A stretch of DNA of 23,926 nucleotides from a virus, in the IMG/VR virus record IMGVR_UViG_3300009702_000087, positions 1 through 23,926 of that record. One strand, written 5' to 3'. The notes beneath the pieces were generated by a model. The model ran no database searches. It was not told the DNA's origin and was given only the letters and a program-made list of their open reading frames with translations. Shown in pieces: positions 3,466 to 21,733 of the stretch. The position numbers and the translations under genes are program-made. Numbering within the stretch: position 1 is the first letter of the stretch; every line of letters starts with the position of its first letter.

Positions 3466-5124
3466 ATGAGCAAACGTGCCGCAGAGCTCATCAAGCGGTG
3501 GGAAAGGCTCAAGGGCCGGCGCAGCCAGTGGTTGTCACACTGGGATGACATCGCCCGCGTCACGTTGCCGCGCCGCCTTGGCTTTTTGAGTCAGACGATC
3601 GAAGGCGATAAGCGGACGCAGGACCTTTTCGACGGCACGGCGATCCATTCCGCCAAGAGCCTCGCCAACGTCACGGGTTCCCTGCTACGTCCCGAGGGAC
3701 GGCCGTGGGTGTTCATCAAGACGGTGGATGACAGTGACCAGACGACGGATGAGGCTAAGGATTGGCTCGCCGACGCCCAGTTTCGGCTTCACAACGCGAT
3801 CTACAGGCCGACGGCGCGCTTTCGCCAGGCGACGGGCGAGATCGACCTGGACCTCGTGACGCTTGGCACCGCCATCGGGTTCGTCGGCGAAAACGACATC
3901 CGTGACCGGCTCACGTTTCGCTCGATCAGCATCAAGGATGCCCTGCCGATGTACGCCGAAGACGGCAACCTCGAAGGCATATTTCTGACCCGCAGCTTGC
4001 CGCTCAGATCGGTCATCGACCGTCCTGGATGGAGACTCTCCGAGGAACTACGCAAGCGCGCCGAGGACAGGTCGAAGATCGACGAGAAGGTCAAGTTCCT
4101 GTTCGCGATCGTCCCTCGTCGCGATGGCCGCGACGGCGCGCTGATCAACAGAAACCTGCCGATTGCGGAACTCGTGATCGAGATCGATACCAAGCACGAG
4201 GTCGCCGAGGGCGGGTACCACGAGATGCCGTACTTCGCGCCTCGCTGGGACACGTCGAGCGGAGAGGACTACGGCAGGTCACCGGGCATGACGGCGCTGC
4301 CTGACGCGAACTCGGCGCAGGCCATCGGCGAGACGATGTTGGTCGCCGGCCAGCGCGCCGCGGACCCGCCTATCCTCGCGCCGTCCGATTCCTTCATGGA
4401 CACGCCGAATACGTCGCCGGGCGGGATCGCCTACTATGAGGCGGACGCCGTGCTGGACCTCGGTGGCGCTGCGATCCGTCCCCTGGAGCCGGGGCGAGGG
4501 TTTCCTCTGACGCGCGAGATTCAGAACGACATGCGCGAGCAAATCCGCAACGGCTTCATGCAAAACGTCTTCGACCTGCCGATCGACAGGCCGCAGATGA
4601 CGGCGACGGAAGTCGTTCAGCGCACCGAGAAGCTACTCCGCGAGATCGGCCCCGTCTTCGGGCGGCTGGAGAGCGACTACACGGCGCCGATGGTCGAGCG
4701 GGCCTTCCAGATCATCCTCCGTTCCGGCGGATTCCTACCCATCCCGCCGGTTTTGCAGGGGGCGGGAATCCGGTTCGAGTATGAGAGCCCGGTGAAGCGG
4801 ATGCGCGAGCGTGCTCAGGCGGTTGCCGCGATCGAGTGGGCGCAGACGATGGCGACCGTGGAATCGATACGGCCCGGCACTTTCGACAGGGTGGACACCG
4901 ATGCTCTCGCCAAGTTCGTCGCCGAGGCGATGACCGTTCCGAGAACCGTGTTGCGCTCCGACAAGGAGGTCGCGCAGATTCGCGACCAGCGCGCGCAGGC
5001 ACAGGCGGCAGCGGCTAAGGCCGCAGAATTGCAGCAAATGGTCGAGGGTGCCAAGACCGGGACAGCCGCCATCAAGAACCTCGCCGCCGCTGGGGCAGGG
5101 GCACCTGGGAGCCCGCCGCGATGA
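3466..5124 (+). CDS. Portal protein (podovirus head-to-tail connector)
   Basis: A 552-residue protein, close to the 536 residues of T7 gp8. The N-terminus (RWERLKGRRSQWLSHWDDIA, then SLANVTGSLLRPEGRPWVFI) is the hallmark of the podovirus head-tail connector family (Pfam Head-tail_con). The middle has the expected alpha/beta core with DYGRSPGMTALPDAN, and RPQMTATEVVQRTEK lies in the stem region. The C-terminal ~60 residues are Ala/Gln-rich and helical, as in crown or barrel segments. As a dodecamer at one capsid vertex it would be the DNA packaging channel and the docking site of tail tubular proteins. No clear Shine-Dalgarno precedes the ATG. Its stop overlaps the next start by ATGA. Confidence 0.96.
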   Translation: MSKRAAELIKRWERLKGRRSQWLSHWDDIARVTLPRRLGFLSQTIEGDKRTQDLFDGTAIHSAKSLANVTGSLLRPEGRPWVFIKTVDDSDQTTDEAKDWLADAQFRLHNAIYRPTARFRQATGEIDLDLVTLGTAIGFVGENDIRDRLTFRSISIKDALPMYAEDGNLEGIFLTRSLPLRSVIDRPGWRLSEELRKRAEDRSKIDEKVKFLFAIVPRRDGRDGALINRNLPIAELVIEIDTKHEVAEGGYHEMPYFAPRWDTSSGEDYGRSPGMTALPDANSAQAIGETMLVAGQRAADPPILAPSDSFMDTPNTSPGGIAYYEADAVLDLGGAAIRPLEPGRGFPLTREIQNDMREQIRNGFMQNVFDLPIDRPQMTATEVVQRTEKLLREIGPVFGRLESDYTAPMVERAFQIILRSGGFLPIPPVLQGAGIRFEYESPVKRMRERAQAVAAIEWAQTMATVESIRPGTFDRVDTDALAKFVAEAMTVPRTVLRSDKEVAQIRDQRAQAQAAAAKAAELQQMVEGAKTGTAAIKNLAAAGAGAPGSPPR

Positions 5125-5918: not shown

Positions 5919-6881
5919 ATGGCAGAAGCAGGCACTGTCAGCGCCCAGGTGGAAACGGGCGAGGCCCAGACCCAGGACGACGGCGAAGCGGCGACCGGCG
6001 AAGGCGAAGGCGCGTGGTACGAGCGCATCGGTGACGACCAGATCAGATCGGTCGCGGCGAACTTCGACGACGAGGCGACGTTTCTCGACGCCCTGGGCTT
6101 CGAGGAGGCGAAGGATGCGGCCGACTGGCGCGAGACGCTCGACGAGGACGGCAAGAAGTTCGCCGCGTCGAGCCCGGACATCGGCCACCTCGTCTCGCGC
6201 GCCGTCGCACTGCAGAAGAAGGTATCCGGCGCGATCATTCCGCCCGGCAAGGACGCCGACGAAGCGACCGTAGCCGCCTACCGTAAGCGGATCGGCGTTC
6301 CTGAGACGGCCGAAGGCTATACGTTCACGGTCCCCGAAGGCACCGAGGTCACCGACACCGACAAGGCATTCCAGCGTAAGTTCGCCGAGACCTTCCATTC
6401 GGCGAACATTACTCAGGACCAGGCGGCGGTGATCAACCATGCGTGGAACGACATGGTGGCGGCGTCGAAGGCGCAACAGATCGAGGACGACAAGCACTTC
6501 GCCGAGGAATCGGAGGCGCAACTGAGACGCGATTGGCCGGGCGCAGAGTTCGACCGCAACAAGACCTTCGCGGAGCGCGCGGCGACTCGTATCTTCGGCG
6601 AGCAGCTACAGGATGCGCGGTCCCTGGAAACCAAGGATGGGAAGTTCGTCCTCGATCATCCCTTGATGTTGCGCGCTCTCGCAGCAGTCGGTCGAGAGAT
6701 GGCAGAGGGTGGGCTGGTGCCGCAACTCGACGCCGAAGAGGTCGAGCAGATCGAGGAGCAAATCCGCGATATGCGCGCGCGCAGCAAGAAGGCCCAGGCT
6801 GAGGGCGACATGCGGAGAGCGAACGAGTTGTACCTGAAGGAGCAGGAACTGCGGGAAAAGGCGCTTGCGGGTCGCGGGTGA
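5919..6881 (+). CDS. Scaffolding (capsid assembly) protein
   Basis: A 320-residue acidic protein, similar in length to T7 gp9 (about 307). The N-terminal ~30 residues are Glu/Gly-rich and probably disordered. Middle features include IIPPGKDADEATVAAYRKRI and GVPETAEGYTFTVPEGTE, the Gly-Val-Pro-Glu...Glu-Gly-Tyr pattern typical of phage scaffold proteins. The C-terminal ~70 residues form a charged coiled coil (EEVEQIEEQIRDMRARSKKA) ending in a Lys/Arg-containing helix, as expected for a capsid-binding end. It should direct procapsid assembly from the major capsid protein encoded next and then leave. An AG-rich ribosome site precedes the ATG. A 222-nt gap follows. Confidence 0.9.
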   Translation: MAEAGTVSAQVETGEAQTQDDGEAATGEGEGAWYERIGDDQIRSVAANFDDEATFLDALGFEEAKDAADWRETLDEDGKKFAASSPDIGHLVSRAVALQKKVSGAIIPPGKDADEATVAAYRKRIGVPETAEGYTFTVPEGTEVTDTDKAFQRKFAETFHSANITQDQAAVINHAWNDMVAASKAQQIEDDKHFAEESEAQLRRDWPGAEFDRNKTFAERAATRIFGEQLQDARSLETKDGKFVLDHPLMLRALAAVGREMAEGGLVPQLDAEEVEQIEEQIRDMRARSKKAQAEGDMRRANELYLKEQELREKALAGRG

Positions 6882-6931: not shown

Positions 6932-7017
6932 AACGAGAAGGTCACCTGCGGATCGCCGTATTACTCGGCTCCGCGGATGACAGCCCGGACTACCAGAAGT
7001 CCCGGCGGATGCGCATT

Positions 7018-7039
7018 GCGGCTCCCATCGCGGGACCGC
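7018..7039 (+). other. RNA hairpin in the capsid leader
   Basis: GCGG, a one-base bulge, TCCC, a five-base loop ATCGC, then GGGA and CCGC give eight pairs. It is the best of four consecutive hairpins in the leader; the others are GCGGA..GCCG/CGGC..TCCGC (6948-6974), GGACT/AGTCC with flanking pairs (6983-7006) and GGACGG/CCGTTC with a G-T pair (7063-7078). In G+C-rich DNA some of this is expected by chance. Confidence 0.4.
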
Positions 7040-7103
7040 CGACAAGCCTTCCAAAGGTTCGCGGACGGTATGCCGTTCCCACAACTTTCAGGGGACAGCA
7101 ACC

Positions 7104-7997
7104 ATGTCCACGTCTATCTCTACCGCCTTCATCAAGGCCTACGACACTGAGGTCAAACAGGTCTTCCAGCGTGAGGGCTCGTATCTGCGCGACACCGTGC
7201 AGAAAAAGACCGGCGTCGTCGGCTCTACGGCGGTGTTCCAGAAGGTCGGCACGGGTTCGGCGACCACCAAGGCACGCAACGGCATGATCGTGCCGATGAA
7301 CCAGACGCACACGGCGCCGTCGGTCACCTTGGTCGATTTCTATGCCGCCGATTACGTCGATCGACTCGATGAGGTCAAAACCAACATCAACGAGCGCGAT
7401 GTCATCGCCCGCGGCGGTGCCATGGCTCTCGGCCGGAAGCTGGACAGCCAGATCACCACGGTTCTGGACACCACGTCACAGTCTACGGTCACTCTGACCA
7501 CGACTAACAAGGGCACCGTTCTCGCCACCGCCTTGGAGTTCACCGAGGCACTTTGGAGCAACGACGTGCCCAATCGGGGCGACGTGTATGCCGCTGTGAC
7601 CTCGCGTTTCTGGTCGCAGTTGAGCACGCTCGATCAGTTCGGTCATGCGGACTACGTGCGCGCCGACGGCCAGGTGTTCGTATCCGGCCCCGATGTCGGT
7701 CGCAACAAGTTCAAGGACTGGCTGGGTGCCAAGTGGACCATGTTCACTGGGCTCCCCGGCGAGGGCACGGCGACGGCCAAGAACTTCATCTGGCACAGGA
7801 ACGCCGTCGGTTACGCCTCGGCCGCGGATGCCAGGAACATCGCAGGTAGCGGCGAAGTGGCGGCCGACATCAACTTCGTGGCCGAACGGGATGCTTATCT
7901 CATCACCCACGTGATGAGCGGCAACGCGGTCATGATCGACGACACGGGCGTCATCGAAGGCGATGTCGATGACACCGCCGCCATCGTCACGTCGTAA
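7104..7997 (+). CDS. Major capsid protein
   Basis: A 297-residue protein directly after the scaffold, with AGGGGA eight bases before the ATG. The N-terminal arm (FIKAYDTEVKQVFQREGSYL, then RDTVQKKTGV) and the core (VDFYAADYVDRLDEVKTNIN, then ERDVIARGGAMALGRKLD) match podovirus and related capsid proteins of HK97 fold, where the Asp-x2-Asp...Arg-x3-Gly-x-Ala-Leu-Gly-Arg-x2-Asp pattern marks the spine helix. The later part has GRNKFKDWLGAKWTMFTGLP, FIWHRNAVGYA and VMSGNAVMIDDTGVI. It is somewhat shorter than T7 gp10A (about 345). No slippery site for a minor capsid readthrough was seen at the end; the stop is TAA. Identity is by pattern and position, and both agree. Confidence 0.93.
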   Translation: MSTSISTAFIKAYDTEVKQVFQREGSYLRDTVQKKTGVVGSTAVFQKVGTGSATTKARNGMIVPMNQTHTAPSVTLVDFYAADYVDRLDEVKTNINERDVIARGGAMALGRKLDSQITTVLDTTSQSTVTLTTTNKGTVLATALEFTEALWSNDVPNRGDVYAAVTSRFWSQLSTLDQFGHADYVRADGQVFVSGPDVGRNKFKDWLGAKWTMFTGLPGEGTATAKNFIWHRNAVGYASAADARNIAGSGEVAADINFVAERDAYLITHVMSGNAVMIDDTGVIEGDVDDTAAIVTS

Positions 7998-8010
7998 GGA
8001 GGGCTGAAGG

Positions 8011-8304
8011 ATGGCTTTCGACTCCAGTAACCTTGTCCGGATGGCCGGTGGCAATGGCTTCGGTCTCTACCGCTACGACACGACCGACGCTCTGAGCGTG
8101 GTTGCCGCGTCGGGCTACATGAACAACTCCGATGACACGCTCAACCTCGTGGTGGGCGACATCATCGAGGTTGTCGTTTGGCCATCGGCTGTGCGAACGG
8201 GCATACCGTCAGACATCGGTCGCCACGTCGTCATGCAGGTGACGGCCGGCTCGGTCGATCTCTCCGACGATCTGTTGGTGGCTACGCCGGCCACCGGCAC
8301 CTGA
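8011..8304 (+). CDS. Small head protein downstream of capsid
   Basis: A 97-residue protein with an ideal AAGGAGGG (7996-8003) seven bases before the ATG, suggesting high expression. It begins MAFDSSNLVRMAGGNGFGLY and contains YDTTDALSVVAASGYMN, then LNLVVGDIIEVVV and strand-rich sequence to the end. Short beta proteins with Gly-Gly-Asn-Gly-Phe-x-Leu-(Tyr/Trp) near the start and a Gly-Tyr-(Met/Phe)-Asn motif are common immediately after phage capsid genes. A decoration or stabilising protein is likely from position and expression signal, but the family function is not known to me. Confidence 0.78.
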   Translation: MAFDSSNLVRMAGGNGFGLYRYDTTDALSVVAASGYMNNSDDTLNLVVGDIIEVVVWPSAVRTGIPSDIGRHVVMQVTAGSVDLSDDLLVATPATGT

Positions 8305-8327
8305 CGCCCGCAGGGGAGGGGTTGGAC

Positions 8328-8333
8328 AGGAGG
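8328..8333 (+). promoter_or_regulatory. Shine-Dalgarno at unusual distance before the first glycosyltransferase
   Basis: AGGAGG is a strong match but lies 14 bases before ATG 8348, longer than the usual 5-9. No start codon in the same frame lies closer, so either initiation is weak or the intervening bases fold. It marks a new translation unit after the 43-base gap that follows the head module. Confidence 0.4.
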
Positions 8334-8347
8334 TTCGATCTCTCCCC

Positions 8348-9115
8348 ATGCACGTCCGCGTCATGCCTTCTCTGGGCGATGCCATCTACTGCCGCCCTTT
8401 CGTCAAGGCGTTCGCCACATCGATCGAGACCAAATGGCCGGCGCTATTCTCGGACCTTGTGTTTCGTGGCGGCGACGACAGAACAATCGCGCCGCGCTAC
8501 GACTCCAAGAACCTGGCGCTCGGCAGCATCCCCCAGGCCATCGGCCGCTTCTTTCCGCCGTTGTCGGAAATCCGCCTGGACCTGCCTCCCGTTGCGCCCT
8601 CGGGTCGGCCGCCCTATGCGCTCGTTCGCGCACCGACGCTCCGGTCCAGATTCTACGCCCCCGCTCGCAACCCGGACGCCCGCTACATCCGCCAGGCCGG
8701 CGAGATCGTCCGCGCGCGCGGTTATCGGCTCATCGGCATCGGGACGGTCGGACCGGACGAGGTGTTCGACGGCGATCCGCCCGTCGTCGATGAAGCCTTC
8801 TGGCACGGCGAACTCGCGATCGAAGAATTGCTCGCTCTGGTCGCGGGCGCGTCGCTGATCGTTGCCGGCCCAGGATGGACCGTGCCGGCCTCCATGGCCT
8901 ACGGCGTTCCACACGTCATCGTCTACGGCGGCGCTGCCAAGTGGAACTCCGTGGACAAGCTGATCGACGAAAGGATGCCGAAGCCGCGTCTGGCGACCGT
9001 AGAGCCCGACGGGTTCTGTAGGGGATGCAAGGATGTCAGACACGACTGCGACAAGAGGATCACCGGGTTCGAAGAGAAGTTCTCCGATGCACTTGATCAC
9101 GCGATGTGTCTGTGA
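8348..9115 (+). CDS. GT-B glycosyltransferase, GT9/heptosyltransferase-like
   Basis: A 255-residue protein. The N-terminus MHVRVMPSLGDAIYCRPFVK has the Gly-x-Gly-Asp-like loop (Ser-Leu-Gly-Asp11) of GT9 heptosyltransferase-type enzymes, in which the Asp is the presumed base. The C-terminal lobe has LLALVAGASLIVAGPGWTVP followed by ASMAYGVPHVIVYGG, the nucleotide-sugar-binding half of GT-B folds. It is shorter than typical heptosyltransferases (about 320-350), so the N-terminal lobe is reduced. Near the end there is a Cys cluster (FCRGCKDVRHDCDKRI) of the C-x2-C-x6-C type, perhaps metal-binding or disulfide-forming. It is the first gene of a three-gene sugar cassette between head and tail genes and overlaps the methyltransferase gene. 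Donor and acceptor are unknown. Confidence 0.8.
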   Translation: MHVRVMPSLGDAIYCRPFVKAFATSIETKWPALFSDLVFRGGDDRTIAPRYDSKNLALGSIPQAIGRFFPPLSEIRLDLPPVAPSGRPPYALVRAPTLRSRFYAPARNPDARYIRQAGEIVRARGYRLIGIGTVGPDEVFDGDPPVVDEAFWHGELAIEELLALVAGASLIVAGPGWTVPASMAYGVPHVIVYGGAAKWNSVDKLIDERMPKPRLATVEPDGFCRGCKDVRHDCDKRITGFEEKFSDALDHAMCL

Positions 9116-9737
9116 CGGCGTGATCTTCGAGCCCGCGCGCATGCACGGCATCGACATCATGAGATGTGCGCGTTGCGGCGTACTTCATCAATGTATCCAC
9201 ATGACGACAGACGATTTGGCAAAGTGGTACAAGAAAGAGTATCACGACAGCGTTTACACGCACGACTACTACCACGATGCCGACGTTGCGCGCCGTCGCA
9301 TCGCTCGCTATACTCAAGCGTTGAAGCCGACAGTCCTTGATGTAGGTTGCGGCAACGGCGCTTTCGTGGACGCTTGTCGCGAGATCGGGGTCGAGGCCAT
9401 AGGCCAGGACATCGGAGGCTACGCCGCGGATGTATATGAATCGATCGAGAGCATGGACGGTTCGTTCAGGACCGTGACGCTGCATGACGTTCTCGAACAC
9501 GTCATCGACCCCAAGGCGACATTGCGCTCTGTCCGCCGCTTGCTCGATGCGGGCGGCTGGCTGATCGTGGACTTCCCGGATTTCTTCTCGAAGGCGGGCC
9601 GCCACCACTGGAAGGCGATCGAGCACCTTTGGATGCTCGGCCGCGACGATATTAGAAACCTCCTCGGGGATGCGGGGTTCGTCGTGCGCAAGATCGACGA
9701 GCCAATCCCTGGCAGATTCGTGGTGTACGCACAATGA
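9087..9737 (+). CDS. Zinc-ribbon SAM-dependent methyltransferase
   Basis: The start at ATG 9087 (216 residues) is preferred because GAAGAGAAG lies seven bases before it and the protein then opens just before the metal-site cysteines; ATG 9033 in the same frame would add 18 low-complexity residues. The N-terminus has C7-x-C9 and C27-x2-C30, a likely zinc ribbon. Motif I is VLDVGCGNGAF (residues 83-93), and HDVLEHVIDP follows, the usual class I methyltransferase acceptor-side loop; then LRSVRRLLDAGGWLIVDFPD. Zinc-ribbon class I methyltransferases often act on sugars or nucleotide-sugars, so glycan methylation fits its place between two glycosyltransferases. Part of the 5' half looks more A+T-rich than its neighbours. 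It overlaps the next gene by ATGA. Confidence 0.85.
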   Translation: MHLITRCVCDGVIFEPARMHGIDIMRCARCGVLHQCIHMTTDDLAKWYKKEYHDSVYTHDYYHDADVARRRIARYTQALKPTVLDVGCGNGAFVDACREIGVEAIGQDIGGYAADVYESIESMDGSFRTVTLHDVLEHVIDPKATLRSVRRLLDAGGWLIVDFPDFFSKAGRHHWKAIEHLWMLGRDDIRNLLGDAGFVVRKIDEPIPGRFVVYAQ

Positions 9738-10651
9738 CCACTGCACGCATCCTGGTGCCTCCTGGCATCGGCGACATCTACTGGGTGTTCGTGAAGTTGC
9801 GCGGCTTCATGGCCGACAAGGGCATAGAAAGGGCCGAAATATGGATCGACGCACCTGACGACAAGCGCCGCTCGCTTGGCTTCGTCGAGCGGGTGCCCTT
9901 TGTCGAGGCAGGCGGGTATTTCGACCGGCGATCCGTCGATCCGAGGCCGGAAGGCCATCTGTCAGGCTGGAAGGCGCGGGCTGCTCGCAAGGAGGCTTAC
10001 ACCAGGGACGCGCGTCATGCCTTCCCGGACATAGACGGGTTCGACTGGTTCATCTCCTTCAACGGTTCGGTAGACGCGGGACGCTCACTCGATGAGATCG
10101 AGCCGCAATGGCCGGCGAATTGGGATCTCGGACTGATTGAGACCCACAGGGACCGGGCCTTCGGCGCGCGCGCCGTCGAGAAGCATGGGGATTACGTCGT
10201 CGCCGCCTTCTTCGATCACGGCATGTATCGGAAGTGGCTGCGCGACATCGACGCCGATGCGATCTCGGGCATCCTGCGGCGCATAGCCGATGCGACAGGA
10301 CATCGTATCGTGCTGGTCGGGGCGAAATGGGATTTGTCGCCGCTGAACCGTGCGTTGCTCGACGCCGGTGGCGACTACCTGGTTTCCGAAATCGGCAACA
10401 CGACGATCGGAGACTATTTCGGGATGCTCCGGCGCGCCAAGGGCTGCATCGGGTTCCCCGCCGGCAACACCATGATGGGTGCCATCCTCGGCATCCCTAC
10501 AGTCCTGATATGGAACCGGCATTTTGCGGAGGGGATGTGGACGAATGCGCTGCCGCCGAACAGCCCGCACTATCTGCCGCTGGACAGCGCGCTCGGTGGC
10601 GAGGCGATCGCCGAGCGTGCGGCACAACATCTTGTGACGCAGACGGTCTAG
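9734..10651 (+). CDS. Second GT-B glycosyltransferase, GT9/heptosyltransferase-like
   Basis: A 305-residue protein starting in an ATGA overlap with the methyltransferase gene. It opens with ARILVPPGIGDIYWVFVKLR, again the Gly-x-Gly-Asp loop (Gly11-Ile-Gly-Asp14) of GT9-like enzymes. The C-terminal lobe has HRIVLVGAKWDLSPLNRALL, then IGDYFGMLRRAKGCIGFPAG followed by NTMMGAILGIPTVLIWNRHF, matching the donor-site helix of GT-B folds (site of the usual Asp-Ser-Gly-x2-His motif, here replaced by Pro-Ala-Gly-Asn-Thr). It is too different from the first glycosyltransferase to be a recent duplicate. With the methyltransferase it could build a short methylated glycan. Substrate unknown. Confidence 0.82.
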   Translation: MTTARILVPPGIGDIYWVFVKLRGFMADKGIERAEIWIDAPDDKRRSLGFVERVPFVEAGGYFDRRSVDPRPEGHLSGWKARAARKEAYTRDARHAFPDIDGFDWFISFNGSVDAGRSLDEIEPQWPANWDLGLIETHRDRAFGARAVEKHGDYVVAAFFDHGMYRKWLRDIDADAISGILRRIADATGHRIVLVGAKWDLSPLNRALLDAGGDYLVSEIGNTTIGDYFGMLRRAKGCIGFPAGNTMMGAILGIPTVLIWNRHFAEGMWTNALPPNSPHYLPLDSALGGEAIAERAAQHLVTQTV

Positions 10652-10721
10652 CTGCGGCACACTTGCCGATTGCATCATTGCAGACTACCATTCGGCACCT
10701 GGACGTTTCATGCGAGGAACC

Positions 10722-11240
10722 ATGAGCAAGACGATCGCCCCCCAGGAAATGATGATGCTCAACGACAACCCCGTGATCCGCACGGTCTGCTCGCCGCAGT
10801 TCATCACCGGGGACATGGTGAAGCGCCACGTGCGGCGCGCCAACCTCGCCGTCGGCGACACCGTGATGGTGCAGTGTTTCAGCCACGATCGGGAACACTT
10901 GATCGCCGAGGTCGAGTACAGGGTGACGGCGCGCGTCACCTCGATCAAGGTAGTCGAGAAGCCCGACTTTTCGACGCATCAGAGCGAGGAGACCGGCTAC
11001 GAGGTCAGGCAGTGGTCCGATTGGTGTTATGTCGATGAACCGCTGCCGACTGTGAGCCACGCTCAGCGGCTCGATCCGGTAGCGTCATCCGAAGTGTCTG
11101 ACGATCGCGCGATCGTAAAGTGGAACGTCGGCAAACGGGCCTACGAGGTGATCTCTGCGGGCGAGGTCGTCGGCGAGTACAACGATAAGGACGCGGCTCT
11201 GTACGCAGCCTCGGCGCATGGGACGACCGCGGCGGCCTGA
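10722..11240 (+). CDS. Hypothetical protein preceding tail tubular protein A
   Basis: The ATG at 10722 (172 residues) follows a GAGGA run; ATG 10710 in the same frame has no ribosome site. The N-terminal ~110 residues are a conserved-looking domain: SPQFITGDMVKRHVRRANLA followed by VGDTVMVQCFSHDREHL, then strands (AEVEYRVTARVTSIKVVE) and a YEVRQWSDWCY motif. The Asp-Thr-Val-x-Val-Gln core suggests a small beta barrel. The C-terminal ~45 residues (AIVKWNVGKRAYEVISAGEV, then YNDKDAALYAAS) look like a separate short repeat found at the ends of phage proteins. No function is assigned. Its stop overlaps the tail tubular A start (TGATG), so it belongs to the tail operon. Confidence 0.75.
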   Translation: MSKTIAPQEMMMLNDNPVIRTVCSPQFITGDMVKRHVRRANLAVGDTVMVQCFSHDREHLIAEVEYRVTARVTSIKVVEKPDFSTHQSEETGYEVRQWSDWCYVDEPLPTVSHAQRLDPVASSEVSDDRAIVKWNVGKRAYEVISAGEVVGEYNDKDAALYAASAHGTTAAA

Positions 11241-11848
11241 TGGCTATCAGCACCACTGGGATCGCCAATAGAGCCCTGAGACTTCTCAAGGCGCGCCGCA
11301 TCACGTCGATCGACGATGGCTCGAAAAATGCCAACGTCGTCTCGGACGTGTTCGATTCAGTGCGCGACGATCTTCTCCGCTCTCACACCTGGCGGTTCGC
11401 TCTCAGGCTCGTCGAGTTGGGCAGGCTCGCGACCGCGCCGGCGTTCAAATGGGACTACGCCTATGCGCTGCCGAGCGACTGGATTCGTACCTTCCGTGTC
11501 TCCGACAACGACGCCGGAACCGGAGGAATCGCTTATGAGGAAGGCGAGGCCGAAAATACCGGGGCGATCCTGACCTCAGCCCAGAACGTCTACCTCATGT
11601 ATGTCTACCGCGTCACCGATCCGAACCGGATGCCACCGGATTTCCAGACCGCGCTCGCCTATGCGCTGGCGGTGGATATGCCTGGGATTTCCAACGTCAG
11701 CGCCGCGGAATGGCAGCTTTTGGAACGTCGAGCGTCCAGAAAGCTGATCCGCGCCAAGTCTGCGAGCTCGCTAGGTTCGCCACCATCGCCACGACCGACC
11801 GGCACCTGGTCGGCCTCGCGACAGGCATGGCGCGGGCCCACGGCTTAG
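11240..11848 (+). CDS. Tail tubular protein A (T7 gp11-like adaptor)
   Basis: A 202-residue protein, close to T7 gp11 (196). The N-terminus has ISTTGIANRALRLLKARRIT, then DDLLRSHTWRFALRLVELGR followed by YAYALPSDWIRTFRVSD: the Leu-Leu-x-Ser-(His/Tyr)-x-Trp-x-Phe-Ala and Tyr-x-Leu-Pro-x-Asp-(Trp/Cys) motifs are characteristic of this family. It would form the dodecameric adaptor between portal and nozzle. The last ~35 residues are Ser/Pro/Arg-rich and probably flexible. Start is fixed by the TGATG overlap with the preceding stop. The nozzle gene follows after four bases. Confidence 0.92.
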   Translation: MAISTTGIANRALRLLKARRITSIDDGSKNANVVSDVFDSVRDDLLRSHTWRFALRLVELGRLATAPAFKWDYAYALPSDWIRTFRVSDNDAGTGGIAYEEGEAENTGAILTSAQNVYLMYVYRVTDPNRMPPDFQTALAYALAVDMPGISNVSAAEWQLLERRASRKLIRAKSASSLGSPPSPRPTGTWSASRQAWRGPTA

Positions 11849-11852
11849 CCCG

Positions 11853-12656
11853 ATGGTCAAGTCGAACCCGTTCCTGCCCCTGTTCTCGGCGGGCGAGCTT
11901 TCACCGCGTCTCGAGGCGCGACTCGACTTCAGTAAATATCCCCAGGGCCTCGAAACCGCTGTCAACCTCATCGCCCTCGCCGAAGGCGGTCTGATGCGGC
12001 GGCCAGGCACCCGGTACGTCGCCGAGGTCAGAGATTCCTCGAAGGCGACGCGGCTCCTGGCCTTCCAGTTCTCCGACATCCAGGCGTACCAGATCGAGAT
12101 GTCGGACAAGGCGTTCCGGTTCTACAGATTCCAGGGGCAGATCGTGGTTCCGCAGACGGATGCGGTGATCGCCAATGGCACGTTCACCTCGGATATCACG
12201 GGCTGGTTCGACCGCAGCACCGGCGGTGTCGGTAACCAGCTAAGCCATGATGCGGCCAACGGTCGGATGACGCTCGAAACCAACGGCACTGCGGCCGACG
12301 ACATCGGATGGGCCGAGCAGATCGTGTCGGTCTCGGCCAGCTTCCAGAACTCGCTGCACGTCCTCAAGTTCCGCGTCATCGGCGCGCCTTCCGACAGGCT
12401 GGAACTGCGCATCGGCACCACCTCGACGGGGAGCGAGATCATCGCCGACAAACTGTACGAGGTCGGCTACCACGCTGTGTCGTTCACGCCGACGGCGGCG
12501 ACCTTCTATGTCCAATTCCGCAACCGCGGCAATTTCCGCGACAAGGATGTGCAGATCGATGATGTGTCCCTGATCTCCAATGCGGCCGTCGAGATCGACA
12601 CGCCATACGCCGCAGCCGATCTTTTCCAGGTGAATGGCCTCAATCGGCCGATGTGA
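11853..12656 (+). CDS. Tail tubular protein B, N-terminal part (T7 gp12-like nozzle), frame-interrupted
   Basis: A 267-residue frame. Residues 1-100 (NPFLPLFSAGELSPRLEARL, then DFSKYPQGLETAVNLIALAE followed by GGLMRRPGTRYVAE) are the conserved start of T7 gp12-type nozzle proteins. Residues ~103-243 are an inserted jelly-roll-like region (ANGTFTSDITGW at one end, DVQIDDVSLIS at the other) resembling carbohydrate-binding modules. The family pattern resumes at VEIDTPYAAADLFQVNG, then the frame ends at TGA 12654-12656. Shifting to the -1 frame near 12638 gives PQSADVIYL, which continues the expected Gln-Ser-Ala-Asp-Val motif straight into the next frame. Together with that frame (577 residues) the length is about 844 residues, like T7 gp12 (794) plus an insert. 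No Shine-Dalgarno precedes ATG 11853; coupling to tail tubular A is likely. Confidence 0.88.
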   Translation: MVKSNPFLPLFSAGELSPRLEARLDFSKYPQGLETAVNLIALAEGGLMRRPGTRYVAEVRDSSKATRLLAFQFSDIQAYQIEMSDKAFRFYRFQGQIVVPQTDAVIANGTFTSDITGWFDRSTGGVGNQLSHDAANGRMTLETNGTAADDIGWAEQIVSVSASFQNSLHVLKFRVIGAPSDRLELRIGTTSTGSEIIADKLYEVGYHAVSFTPTAATFYVQFRNRGNFRDKDVQIDDVSLISNAAVEIDTPYAAADLFQVNGLNRPM

Positions 12657-14386
12657 TCTATCTGTTTCACGGCAGCTATCCCACCTACAAGCTACAACGG
12701 CTCGGGAACAGCGATTGGTCGCTGGTCGAAGTCGCCTGGCAGGACGGTCCCTATTTCGATCAGAACGTGATCGTGCCTGGCACAGTAGGCACCGGCGTTG
12801 GATTGACGCCTGCCGCTACGACTGGCATGGCTATCGCCGTGTCCTCGTCGGCTGCGGGCACCTTCACCGCTGATGATGTCGGGCGTGTTCTCGGGCTCTC
12901 CAATCCCGCATCCGGCACCGATTGGGGATGGGGAGTGGTCGTCGAATACGTATCGGGCAGCCAAGTCAAGGTCGATGTGATGCGTGACTTTGCTGCGACC
13001 ACCCAGACGTTCGTATGGCGTCTAGGCGCGTGGTCGGCAAGGACCGGCTACCCCTCCGCGGGCACCTTCTTCCAACAGCGAATGATGGCCGCCGCCACTA
13101 CGTCGCAGCCCCAGACCTTCTGGGCGTCCAATACCAGCGATTTCGAGACGTTCTCGCCCGATTCGGCGAACCCTACGGGCGTCTGGGACGGTACGGTCCA
13201 GGACGATGACAGCTTCGCCTACACGATCTCGGCAGATCAGGTGAACACGATCCGCTGGATGCGCTCGATCAAGGCGACGATGATGATCGGCACCTTCGGC
13301 GGGACATGGACGATCAGTTCCACCGGCGCGGTCGTGACGCCCACGGACGTGTCCGTGGATGCGGCCACCGTCGATGGCTCGGCGCAGATCGAACCGCTCG
13401 CCATCGGCCGTGTTATCCTGTTCGTGCAGCGCGCCAAGACGAAACTGTGGGAAATGGCCTACCGTTTCCAGTCCGATGGCTTCACGGCAGAGGACATGAC
13501 GCGGCTCGCGCAGCACGTTTTCGAGCGGCCGGGACAGGGCATCGTGGAGATGGCCTATGCGCAGGAGCAGAACGGCATTGTCTGGGTCGTGCGGGGCGAT
13601 GGCACACTGTGCAGCATGACCTTCCGGCGCGAGGAGGACGTGGTTAACTGGTCGCGCCACATTCTGGGTGGAAGTTTCGGCTCGGGTCAGGCCGTGGTCG
13701 AGAGCGTATCGGTCATCCCTGGCGCCGACGGGACCGGACAGGTCAAATCATCCGAAAACCGAGACGAGGTGTGGGTGATCGTCAAGCGTACGATCAACGG
13801 GGCGACGAAGCGCTACGTCGAGTTCATGGAAGGCGACTGGACCACGGGCGACGACCAGGAGGATGCCTACTACACCGATTCGCTAATCACCTATGACGGC
13901 GCGGCGACGGGGACCATCACAGGTCTCTCGCACATCGAAGGCGAAGCGGTGCGCATTCTCGCCGATGGCTCGGTCCACCCCGATCGAACCGTCAGCGGCG
14001 GCTCGGTGACGCTCGACGCGAGCACCTACAAGGTCGTGCAGATCGGGCTCCCGTACAAGCACACTGCCAAGACGCTCAAGATGATCTCGGGGACGGTCGC
14101 AGGCACGCCGGCGGGCAAGACGAAGGAGATTTTCGGAATCACGTTCATCGTGCTGAACTCCCACACTCTCACCTTCGGCCCGGATACGTCGAACCTCGAA
14201 ACGATCGACTTCCGAAAGGTCACCGACCTTATGGACGCGGCGGTACCGTATTTCACCGGCGAGTTCTTCGTCGAGTTCGACGATGACTGGAAAACCGATC
14301 CTCGCATCGTGATCGAATCCAACGACCCGGTACCTTTCTCGTTGCTCGCGCTGGCGCCGGAAATGGACACCCGGGAGACTCGGTGA
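12653..14386 (+). CDS. Tail tubular protein B, C-terminal part (T7 gp12-like nozzle)
   Basis: A 577-residue frame whose first possible start, GTG 12653, overlaps the preceding TGA as GTGA but has no Shine-Dalgarno. The sequence IYLFHGSYPTYKLQRLGNSD continues the gp12 family pattern without a gap, followed by the barrel repeats, WSARTGYPSAGTFFQQRMM, QTFWASNTSDFETFSPDS and RILADGSVHPDRTVSGGSV. The final part, FVEFDDDWKTDPRIVIESND followed by PVPFSLLALAPEM, is the typical family C-terminus. It may be translated by reinitiation, by a -1 frameshift, or only if the frame break is a sequencing error. Hexamers of the whole protein would form the tail nozzle. The stop overlaps the GNAT gene start. Confidence 0.88.
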   Translation: MIYLFHGSYPTYKLQRLGNSDWSLVEVAWQDGPYFDQNVIVPGTVGTGVGLTPAATTGMAIAVSSSAAGTFTADDVGRVLGLSNPASGTDWGWGVVVEYVSGSQVKVDVMRDFAATTQTFVWRLGAWSARTGYPSAGTFFQQRMMAAATTSQPQTFWASNTSDFETFSPDSANPTGVWDGTVQDDDSFAYTISADQVNTIRWMRSIKATMMIGTFGGTWTISSTGAVVTPTDVSVDAATVDGSAQIEPLAIGRVILFVQRAKTKLWEMAYRFQSDGFTAEDMTRLAQHVFERPGQGIVEMAYAQEQNGIVWVVRGDGTLCSMTFRREEDVVNWSRHILGGSFGSGQAVVESVSVIPGADGTGQVKSSENRDEVWVIVKRTINGATKRYVEFMEGDWTTGDDQEDAYYTDSLITYDGAATGTITGLSHIEGEAVRILADGSVHPDRTVSGGSVTLDASTYKVVQIGLPYKHTAKTLKMISGTVAGTPAGKTKEIFGITFIVLNSHTLTFGPDTSNLETIDFRKVTDLMDAAVPYFTGEFFVEFDDDWKTDPRIVIESNDPVPFSLLALAPEMDTRETR

Positions 14387-19165: not shown

Positions 19166-21733
19166 ATGACCTTATCGTCCGACGTCACCAAGGTCAGTTA
19201 TTTCGGCAACGGCTCCACAACACCCTTTGCCGTGCCCTTCATCTGGTGGGACGACACCGACCTCCGCGTCTTGCTGCGGGATGCCGCCGGCGTAGAGACA
19301 GAGTGGGTCCAGGGGACAGATTACACGCTCGTCGGCGGCAACGGCGCCTCCGGTACGCTGACTGCTACCGTGGCGCCAGCCACGGGCACGACCCTGGTCA
19401 TCAAGTCAAACCGGGCTGAAACGCAATTGGACGATTTCCCGCTTGGAGGTCCGCTGTCGTCGGCCACGCTGGAACAGGCCATCGACAAGACGGTGCGTCT
19501 TGTCCAGCAAAACTCCGAGGGGATCGGCCGATCCTTGCAGGTAGCGGAGACGGACCCGGCGTCGACGCAGATCGCTTCGGTCACAGCGCGCGCCAACAAG
19601 CTGCTCGGGTTCGACGCCGGCGGGAACTTTAGCTACACGTCGATCTTGACGGGGACGCCGACGGACATTTCCGGGAGCACGGTTCAGACGACTATCGGCA
19701 CGGTGGCATCGACCGTCGCCGATCGTTTCGGTGATCTACCCAATCTCAAGCGGGACTTCGGTGCTGTTGGAGATGGCGTGGCCGACGACACTGCGAAGGT
19801 CGTCGCGGCACATAACGCCCTGTCCGAGAACGACACCTTGTTCGTGCCGGATGGGCTTTACCGCTGCACGAGTACGGTCAACTGGACGAAGGCGATAAAC
19901 ATCATCGGGGTTGGGCCGGCATCGGCCTTCTATCTCGACGTTGGCGCTGCAAATGACGGGTTCGTCGTCGGCACCGATGCCGCGCTGATAGAGGGTATGT
20001 TCTGGCACGAGATCGGTTTCCTCGGGAAGACATGCCGCGACGTCCTCGTGCTGAAACACGTCACCAAGAGCGATTTGGGACGCGTGTTCGCCGGCACTGA
20101 CGAGGCGTTTGGTACGATCGGGAGATATTGCTTCCACACCATCGGTTCGCTGGTCAACCGCTATGCTTTTCTGTGTCCCGGCAACAACATGCCGGTCAAT
20201 ACGGTGCTGGGGACCAAAGCATATCACAACGCCGGGAACGGCGTCGTCTATGTCGCGCCGATAGCTGACAGCGCGCTAGGCATCGGCCAGAACGCCAATC
20301 GCTTCTACGTCCATTTGTTAGGGATCAAGGCATATAACGCGGCGACGGAAGCCGTGTTTTACCAGGCGGCGCAGAGCCCGACAGGCGGCAATTCCGTCAT
20401 TCAGGGGGCCATCGAGGGTCTCACCGCTCAGACGAACGCAGTGCCATTCAGGCTCGATCAGTGTGCAAAATTTCGCGTCGAGTCACTGCACATCGAGGGG
20501 TTTTCTCAACAATCCAAGCTCGTTGGAACAGTCGAGACCACGATCGTAGGTTCGCGCCTCGAAGCCGGTCTCGATATCGATTCAACCACCCTGTCTCCCG
20601 TGATCGATGGCAACGAGATCGTTGGCTATCTCACGATCGCAGCCAACGCGCTGCATAGTGGCGCACAGGTCGGCCGCAACCTGTTCAACGGGGCCTTCAA
20701 CATCCGCGACAAGAGCGGGCAGGTGGTCGGGACGGGGCCGAACCGTTTTTCATCTGGTACGGGGGGCGTATCACAGGCTCCGGCGACTCCTGGCGGCATG
20801 ATCTGGGGCGGGGGGCTCGACCGTTGGCGCGCCACTGGTTTTCCGGAAGGCGTTGCCGTGGTGGGGGCCGGCGTCACTTTGACGAAGACCGGCCTCGGAC
20901 AAGCGGACACCACGCGGTTCCATTCGGAGTTCGCGGCGAAGGTCACGACGACGAACGCGAGCACCGGGATCAAGTTCGTGGCCGAGTTCGAGCCAACGGA
21001 CGGCCATCGCCGCATCAAAGGCGAATGGATCACGGCGCTGGTCAAGGTCAAAATCCCTTCCGGTTCGACGACGACGACGGTTTGGCTCGCACCGACTTAT
21101 GCGCCGTCGGGTGCCATACTCGCGCCTTTCAACAGTACGACGACCGTCAGGGTCAACACGAAGGACGAAGACACGTGGCTTTACGCGACGGTCAAGGCCG
21201 AGAACGGTGCCGATACGTTTGTCGGGTTCCAGTTGCTCGCCGTGGAAGCAGGGGACTTCTACTTTGGTGACCCGGCTGTTTACGTCGGGGTTGCGCCGGC
21301 CTTCGGCAGCCATGTCCCGCCGCGTGTTCTGGCCGATGTCGTCACGATCGACGGTCAGCGCATTGGATTCGCCAGTGCGCCGCCGACCACAGGCGATTGG
21401 ATCCAGAACGACATTCTCATCAATAATGCGTCAGCTGTCGGACAGCCACTGGGATGGGTCTGCACCGTCAGCGGAGTGCCTGGAACGTGGGTGGCTCTGC
21501 CACTCGTGGGCGGCAGCAATAGCGGGACGATCACGACGGGGGTTTCGGTGAGCGGCAACAGTTCTCCGACCCACGGCCTAGGGCGCACCCCGGCCAAGGA
21601 TGAGGTGTCATTGACGCCTGTGTCCGATCCCGGCCCGATGCGCTTCTGGGTCAGCGCGACGAGCGCGACGACCATTACGATCGACTGGGCCGCCAACGAC
21701 AGCGTGGACCGTTCCATCGGCTGGTCCATCTAG
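19166..21733 (+). CDS. Tail fibre/tailspike with T7-type anchor and pectate-lyase-like beta-helix
   Basis: An 855-residue protein. Residues 1-~130 (VSYFGNGSTTPFAVPFIWWD, then TLEQAIDKTVRLVQQNSEGI) match the T7 gp17-like anchor that binds the tail. Around residue 189, LKRDFGAVGDGVADDTAKVV is the standard opening of pectate-lyase-type (Pectate_lyase_3) beta-helix domains; strand ladders (IEGLTAQTNAVPFRLDQCAK, TTIVGSRLEAGLDIDST) run to about residue 530. From ~535 a jelly-roll/lectin-like region begins (GGGLDRWRATGFPEGVAVVG ... DTFVGFQLLAVEAGDFYFGD). The C-terminus has RIGFASAPPTTGDWIQNDIL then WVCTVSGVPGTWVALP, a module common at phage fibre ends, and a last beta domain ending DRSIGWSI. It probably binds and may cleave a capsule or exopolysaccharide; active residues cannot be named from sequence. 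Confidence 0.9.
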   Translation: MTLSSDVTKVSYFGNGSTTPFAVPFIWWDDTDLRVLLRDAAGVETEWVQGTDYTLVGGNGASGTLTATVAPATGTTLVIKSNRAETQLDDFPLGGPLSSATLEQAIDKTVRLVQQNSEGIGRSLQVAETDPASTQIASVTARANKLLGFDAGGNFSYTSILTGTPTDISGSTVQTTIGTVASTVADRFGDLPNLKRDFGAVGDGVADDTAKVVAAHNALSENDTLFVPDGLYRCTSTVNWTKAINIIGVGPASAFYLDVGAANDGFVVGTDAALIEGMFWHEIGFLGKTCRDVLVLKHVTKSDLGRVFAGTDEAFGTIGRYCFHTIGSLVNRYAFLCPGNNMPVNTVLGTKAYHNAGNGVVYVAPIADSALGIGQNANRFYVHLLGIKAYNAATEAVFYQAAQSPTGGNSVIQGAIEGLTAQTNAVPFRLDQCAKFRVESLHIEGFSQQSKLVGTVETTIVGSRLEAGLDIDSTTLSPVIDGNEIVGYLTIAANALHSGAQVGRNLFNGAFNIRDKSGQVVGTGPNRFSSGTGGVSQAPATPGGMIWGGGLDRWRATGFPEGVAVVGAGVTLTKTGLGQADTTRFHSEFAAKVTTTNASTGIKFVAEFEPTDGHRRIKGEWITALVKVKIPSGSTTTTVWLAPTYAPSGAILAPFNSTTTVRVNTKDEDTWLYATVKAENGADTFVGFQLLAVEAGDFYFGDPAVYVGVAPAFGSHVPPRVLADVVTIDGQRIGFASAPPTTGDWIQNDILINNASAVGQPLGWVCTVSGVPGTWVALPLVGGSNSGTITTGVSVSGNSSPTHGLGRTPAKDEVSLTPVSDPGPMRFWVSATSATTITIDWAANDSVDRSIGWSI

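Follow-up and report, generated by a model that had tools for sequence, protein, structure and literature searches.

Two glycosyltransferases (GT1 and GT2) and a methyltransferase (MT), encoded as a cassette within the podovirus-type structural block of the virus record IMGVR_UViG_3300009702_000087, probably serve the late-expressed glycosylation of a virion protein, with methyl capping of the glycan; its activity, acceptor, donor sugar, order of steps and benefit are as we infer them. The stretch analysed, called the window here, covers 23,926 bases. In the cited literature, demonstrated glycosylation of phage particles is that of mycobacteriophages. If the reading given here is right, phages that infect Pseudomonas, Enterobacter and many uncultured hosts would share the trait, and a function would be suggested for phrog_6804 (now 'unknown'). 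Particle glycans affect antibody recognition, which makes the question relevant to phage therapy and to how virion surfaces are shaped in nature.

The cassette in its structural gene block

An earlier, sequence-only reading had described three overlapping genes between capsid and tail genes, and this was confirmed by the open reading frames, the PF12236 and PF19821 matches and the tail-gene neighbours (Table 1). The program-called MT frame begins at 9033, but its start was set at an internal ATG at 9087 because homologs align from there; from this start MT overlaps GT1 by 29 bases, and the overlap of MT and GT2 is ATGA. The small protein encoded 3' of the capsid gene (8011-8304) gave a profile match to the N-terminus of 'orf16' (PDB 9eg4_H; seven chains in 9eg4), a likeness consistent with a capsid-associated protein, and in relatives a gene of this type also lies 3' of the capsid gene. 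Pelagibacter (HTVC010P-like) and Vibrio podoviruses were among the relatives of the window portal and capsid, at approximately 29-42% identity.

The GC content (58-65%) and GC3 (74-80%) of the cassette were near the range of the neighbouring genes, and recent acquisition from a compositionally different host was set aside on this basis. Chance open reading frames were excluded, as the homolog families are deep and conserved. Promoter and terminator scans of the region gave nothing above shuffled sequences, and a DNA-level search of the cassette region against phages returned no match. None of the scanned window proteins was recognised as an enzyme of sugar-nucleotide synthesis, so that donors would be supplied by the host or by a part of the genome outside the record.

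Table 1. The cassette and the structural genes around it in the window
Feature	Coordinates	Strand	Basis
Portal	3466-5124		PF12236
Protease-like gene	5919-6881		
Major capsid protein, 5' of the cassette, possible acceptor	7104..7997	+	PF19821, E=4e-49
Small capsid-linked protein, probable decoration protein, left border of the insertion site, possible acceptor	8011..8304	+	phrog_18004
GT1, phrog_6804-family GT-B glycosyltransferase, 255 aa	8348..9115	+	Profile match, AlphaFold, Foldseek
MT, class I SAM methyltransferase with N-terminal zinc-ribbon-like cysteines	9087..9737	+	PF13489
GT2, GT9-like GT-B glycosyltransferase, 305 aa	9734..10651	+	AlphaFold, Foldseek
Small protein, right border of the insertion site	10710..11240	+	BLASTP to cassette-free relatives
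Tail tubular A-like	11240-11848		
Nozzle	11853-14386		

Folds and relatives of the three enzymes

Structures were predicted with AlphaFold (AF2) from an alignment of the fetched loci, giving models with a pLDDT of 92 for GT2 and 82 for GT1. In Foldseek searches, GT2 matched the GT9 structures 3tov (2e-9), 1psw (2e-8) and 2gt1 (4e-7), with the LPS heptosyltransferases WaaF and WaaC among the best folds. The best PDB folds for GT1 were those of TibC (4rap/4rb4, E about 1e-4), followed by GT9 3tov (1e-3) and WaaC, and the likeness of GT1 to TibC was moderate (TM about 0.5, with a large rmsd). A GT-B fold of the WaaC/WaaF type was thus found in the GT2 model, and more weakly in that of GT1, and the GT-B/GT9-like folds that had been proposed for both transferases are supported. 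The Gly-x-Gly-Asp loops ascribed to both enzymes were found in part: GT2 has G-I-G-D, and shares the G-x-G-D loop with WaaF and WaaC, but GT1 of the window reads S-L-G-D. Nearly all relatives of GT1 have G-L-G-D at this position, and a cyanophage copy has G-I-G-D. GT1 and GT2 are distantly related to each other (hhalign probability 87%).

GT1 was matched by phrog_6804, a family of unknown function, at E=2e-47 in two stretches, the best covering residues 76-252 of 255. GT1 had no GT9 match at E<0.1 in Pfam (PF01075) or NCBIfam. A profile search of PDB sequences with GT1 ranked TibC at the top, at a non-significant E=0.6, and single-sequence searches of the PDB with GT1 and GT2 gave nothing informative. 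For GT2 there was no match in Pfam (the GT9 model at E<0.1 included), NCBIfam, PHROGs or the GenBank phage collection; the lack of a Pfam GT9 match and the location of its gene in a phage virion block distinguish GT2 from WaaF and WaaC.

In IMG/VR, GT1 and GT2 retrieved nothing as single-sequence queries but did retrieve relatives as profiles. Relatives of GT1 were found in 24 GenBank phages and at 171 places in IMG/VR, of which 80 were kept, and relatives of GT2 at 44 IMG/VR loci, exclusively in uncultured viruses within the collections searched. In GTDB, a scan with a GT2 profile built from three sequences returned no relative in bacteria; the scan uses strict peptide patterns and does not imply a phage-only status. 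The alignments of GT1 showed an invariant C-terminal motif, C-x(1-2)-C-x4-H-x-C-x-K-x-I, which plausibly forms a compact metal site. The D3-type copies, with dN/dS values of 0.10-0.21, are under purifying selection.

The description of the middle gene as a zinc-ribbon methyltransferase held. PF13489 (Methyltransf_23) matched MT at E=8e-21 (74.9 bits against a curated cut-off of 27), a D-V-G-C-G-N-G motif of the G-x-G-x-G type is kept in relatives, and an N-terminal cysteine set, C-x-C followed by C-x-x-C or C-x-C, recurs in the ribbon-type relatives examined. Sugar 3-C-methyltransferases were among the solved relatives of MT.

Linkage and fusion of the three genes

A methyltransferase, of either the ribbon or the D3 type, was present at all 80 kept GT1 loci and at 40 of the 44 GT2 loci, the remaining four being L111 (at a contig end), L123, L146 and L149. 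GT1, MT and GT2 also co-occur in L029, L095/L145, L147 and L148. In relatives, GT2 is usually fused to MT: the two form a single open reading frame of 514-595 aa in L029, L112, L113, L115, L116, L120 and L150, lie inside one larger frame in L110 and L114, and share a frame that includes at least part of MT in L119. One 1052-aa frame with the order GT1-GT1-GT2 directly follows the capsid gene in L148 (4766-7924), and a LicD domain is fused to GT1 in L035. That the three genes act as one functional unit, as had been suggested from their overlaps, is supported by these gene fusions.

Position of the module across phages

At 83 of 123 fetched loci the module was flanked by head genes upstream and by tail genes downstream. 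This figure is a description and no test of the head-tail placement, as 60 of these 83 loci are D3-like, and so not independent, and the loci themselves supplied some of the structural queries. The other loci had head genes upstream only (19), tail genes downstream only (7) or neither (14). The module was seen with at least eight capsid types, including those of D3, PAJU2, Psp6, L115/L150 (phrog_771), L120 (phrog_1005), L128 (phrog_10), L148 (phrog_247), L035 (phrog_617) and the window (PF19821), so that the placement in a virion block noted for the window recurs across unrelated phages.

The position between capsid and tail genes was not universal, with exceptions in L029, L095 and L149. In L095, a T4-like phage, GT1-GT2-MT (6998-9273) is flanked by a regA-type translation repressor and DNA polymerase, and the same order adjoins DNA polymerase genes in L095/L100/L145. 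The module of L029 is near DnaC-like and Holliday-resolvase-like genes, and GT2 of L149 is near nrdA. As L095 shows, the association of the module with late genes does not hold for all phages.

The insertion site in capsid relatives

Of the 17 capsid relatives found for the window, L014 and L020 have an empty site in place of the cassette, with a single small bordering protein that separates the 8011-type gene from the tail genes; the protein encoded at 10710-11240 of the window is weakly similar to it (BLASTP E=4e-6 for L020 and 3e-4 for L014). In L013, L015 and L022, with capsids 62-68% identical to that of the window, different sugar genes occupy the same site. These are a phrog_1962 glycosyltransferase in L013 and L022, and a DegT aminotransferase, a B12-radical SAM protein, a TPP enzyme and an NDP-sugar dehydratase in L013 (10311-15192) and L015 (10209-18889), to which L015 adds a GHMP kinase, a cytidylyltransferase and an MptE-like protein. 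The gene sets of L013 and L015 look like a pathway for the synthesis of an unusual sugar. The MptE-like matches, which were below the Pfam cut-off, recur in the head-gene block of L115, PAJU2 and L015, and this family is presumably related to the flagellin-modifying Maf proteins. The capsid C-termini were alike in relatives with and without a cassette.

We tentatively suggest that the capsid-tail junction is a general island for glycan cassettes in tailed phages, and that virion glycosylation may be widespread and quickly exchanged beyond the mycobacteriophages. TibC/GT9-like transferases, MptE-like proteins, LicD domains and sugar methyltransferases would then be parts that have possibly been shuffled and fused across unrelated capsid lineages.

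An annotation as 'alpha-2,3-sialyltransferase' was encountered among the head genes of D3 (orf7; L002 5204-5662) and PAJU2 (ORF010; L003 6450-7019). PAJU2 ORF010 and the L115 relative weakly resemble MptE-like proteins, and proteins of a similar kind are found repeatedly near the glycan cassettes of other phages.

Comparison with known systems

Corndog, a cluster O mycobacteriophage, is similar to the window in that gp35-gp38 comprise an O-methyltransferase and several glycosyltransferases within the head gene block, and the maps of Firecracker and Catdawg contain a cassette of the same type, with Firecracker gp35 annotated as a GalNAc-transferase. The O-methyltransferase and three transferases of Corndog lie between portal and protease (PMC4351075), whereas the window cassette follows the capsid gene. 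According to PMC12363180 and PMC12691614, glycosylation of the Corndog capsid was shown by Freeman et al. 2023, and the former reports that gp38 is essential for it. Catdawg gp34 and gp33 gave hhalign probabilities of 0.2, 2.4 and 0.8% for the pairs tried against GT1, GT2 and MT, and homology to the Corndog-type cassette was rejected for gp33 and gp34 (<3%).

The D3 orf12/orf13 pair and its equivalents in PMG1, PAJU2, Psp6 and Enterobacter phage Mulvp2 include a GT1 homolog of 30-36% identity, and carry no functional annotation in the database records. As in the window, this gene overlaps or abuts a methyltransferase gene between head and tail genes, but the group lacks GT2 and its methyltransferase is of a second type, without the cysteine ribbon. 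In D3, orf12/13 occupy 7.7-9.1 kb, with head closure on one side and tail genes on the other; the serotype-conversion/O-antigen genes (iap, acetylase and wzy-beta) lie apart from them, close to the integrase, at 21.0-24.6 kb.

TibC, the best solved fold for GT1, is a protein O-heptosyltransferase of the bacterial autotransporter heptosyltransferase (BAHT; TibC/AAH) type. The invariant W177 of GT1 aligns with the sugar-binding W305 of TibC, but L161 stands at the position of R286 (HMMER alignment), so that the W305 and R286 pair is incomplete. The iron finger of TibC consists of C339, C342, C358 and C370 (PMC4358343). Its BAHT pattern, C-x2-C-x15-C-x11-C, differs from the C224-x2-C227-x4-H232-x-C234 of GT1, which is C-terminal, at a place comparable to that of TibC, and offers C-C-H-C as candidate ligands with shorter spacing. 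GT1 is also shorter (255 aa against 406), starts at the strand before the GD loop and lacks the BAHT N-terminal beta-barrel of about 97 residues. GT1 departs from the BAHT type in three features, and the resemblance of its model to TibC is a fold-level lead.

Proposed role and alternatives

GT1, MT and GT2 together would form a single late-expressed glycan assembly unit. GT1 would most likely act in the cytoplasm and place a sugar on one of the side chains of a virion protein, in the way that TibC modifies its autotransporter, GT2 would extend the glycan or add a second sugar, and MT would methylate a sugar and so cap the glycan. The glycan would most likely be carried by the capsid protein or by its small decoration protein; no motif for an acceptor site was detected. 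The capsid-tail junction would serve as a hotspot for the exchange of sugar cassettes, allowing a rapid change of the particle surface.

The sequence-only reading had left a choice between decoration of virion proteins and remodelling of host-surface glycans. Of these, virion decoration is favoured, because of the late-gene position of the cassette and the different sugar cassettes found at the same site next to related capsids, and because the D3 serotype-conversion genes are elsewhere, the nearest solved relative of GT1 is TibC and Corndog provides a precedent. Remodelling of the LPS core or O-antigen, whether in lysogens or at a late stage of infection, would block re-adsorption or superinfection, and agrees with the closeness of the GT2 fold to GT9 and to WaaF/WaaC, with the many temperate Pseudomonas phages among the GT1 carriers and with the O-antigen modification genes of D3. 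We consider it unlikely, as those D3 genes are near the integrase and outside the head-tail operon that contains orf12/13, and as the best solved match of GT1 modifies a protein. Late operons also contain unrelated cargo, which counts against virion decoration, and the cassette might be such a moron, late by accident and with a role unrelated to the virion, for example host metabolism or a small-molecule glycoside. The empty sites in relatives, which indicate that the cassette is dispensable for a phage of the window's type, and the location of the module elsewhere in some relatives would agree with passing cargo. This is nevertheless improbable, since the same junction recurs with unrelated capsid types, and phages whose capsids are related have it refilled with different sugar cassettes.

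Glycosylation and methylation of modified bases in the phage DNA, as a protection against restriction, appears very improbable. Phage GT-B enzymes that decorate DNA do exist (Pyle et al. 2024, as cited in PMC12619734), and the module is among replication or nucleotide genes in L095, L029 and L149. Most loci, however, are in the head-tail block without DNA metabolism genes adjoining the module, the window showed no partner for base modification, and the LicD, DegT, NDP-sugar and MptE-like neighbours indicate glycan rather than base chemistry.

Tail genes of the window

Glycan-related domains had also been ascribed to the tail fibre and the nozzle. The first was found, as PF12708, a pectate-lyase-like domain, in an 855-aa protein (19166-21733) with a weak T7 tail-fibre N-terminus, which is a probable glycan-degrading tail spike; in the nozzle, no Pfam domain related to glycans was found. 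The window has its nozzle gene in two frames (11853-12656 and 12653-14386), whereas the gene is a single open frame in L014, L017, L019, L020 and L024. The window record has a frameshift here, which reflects either an error in sequencing or a genuine split of the gene.
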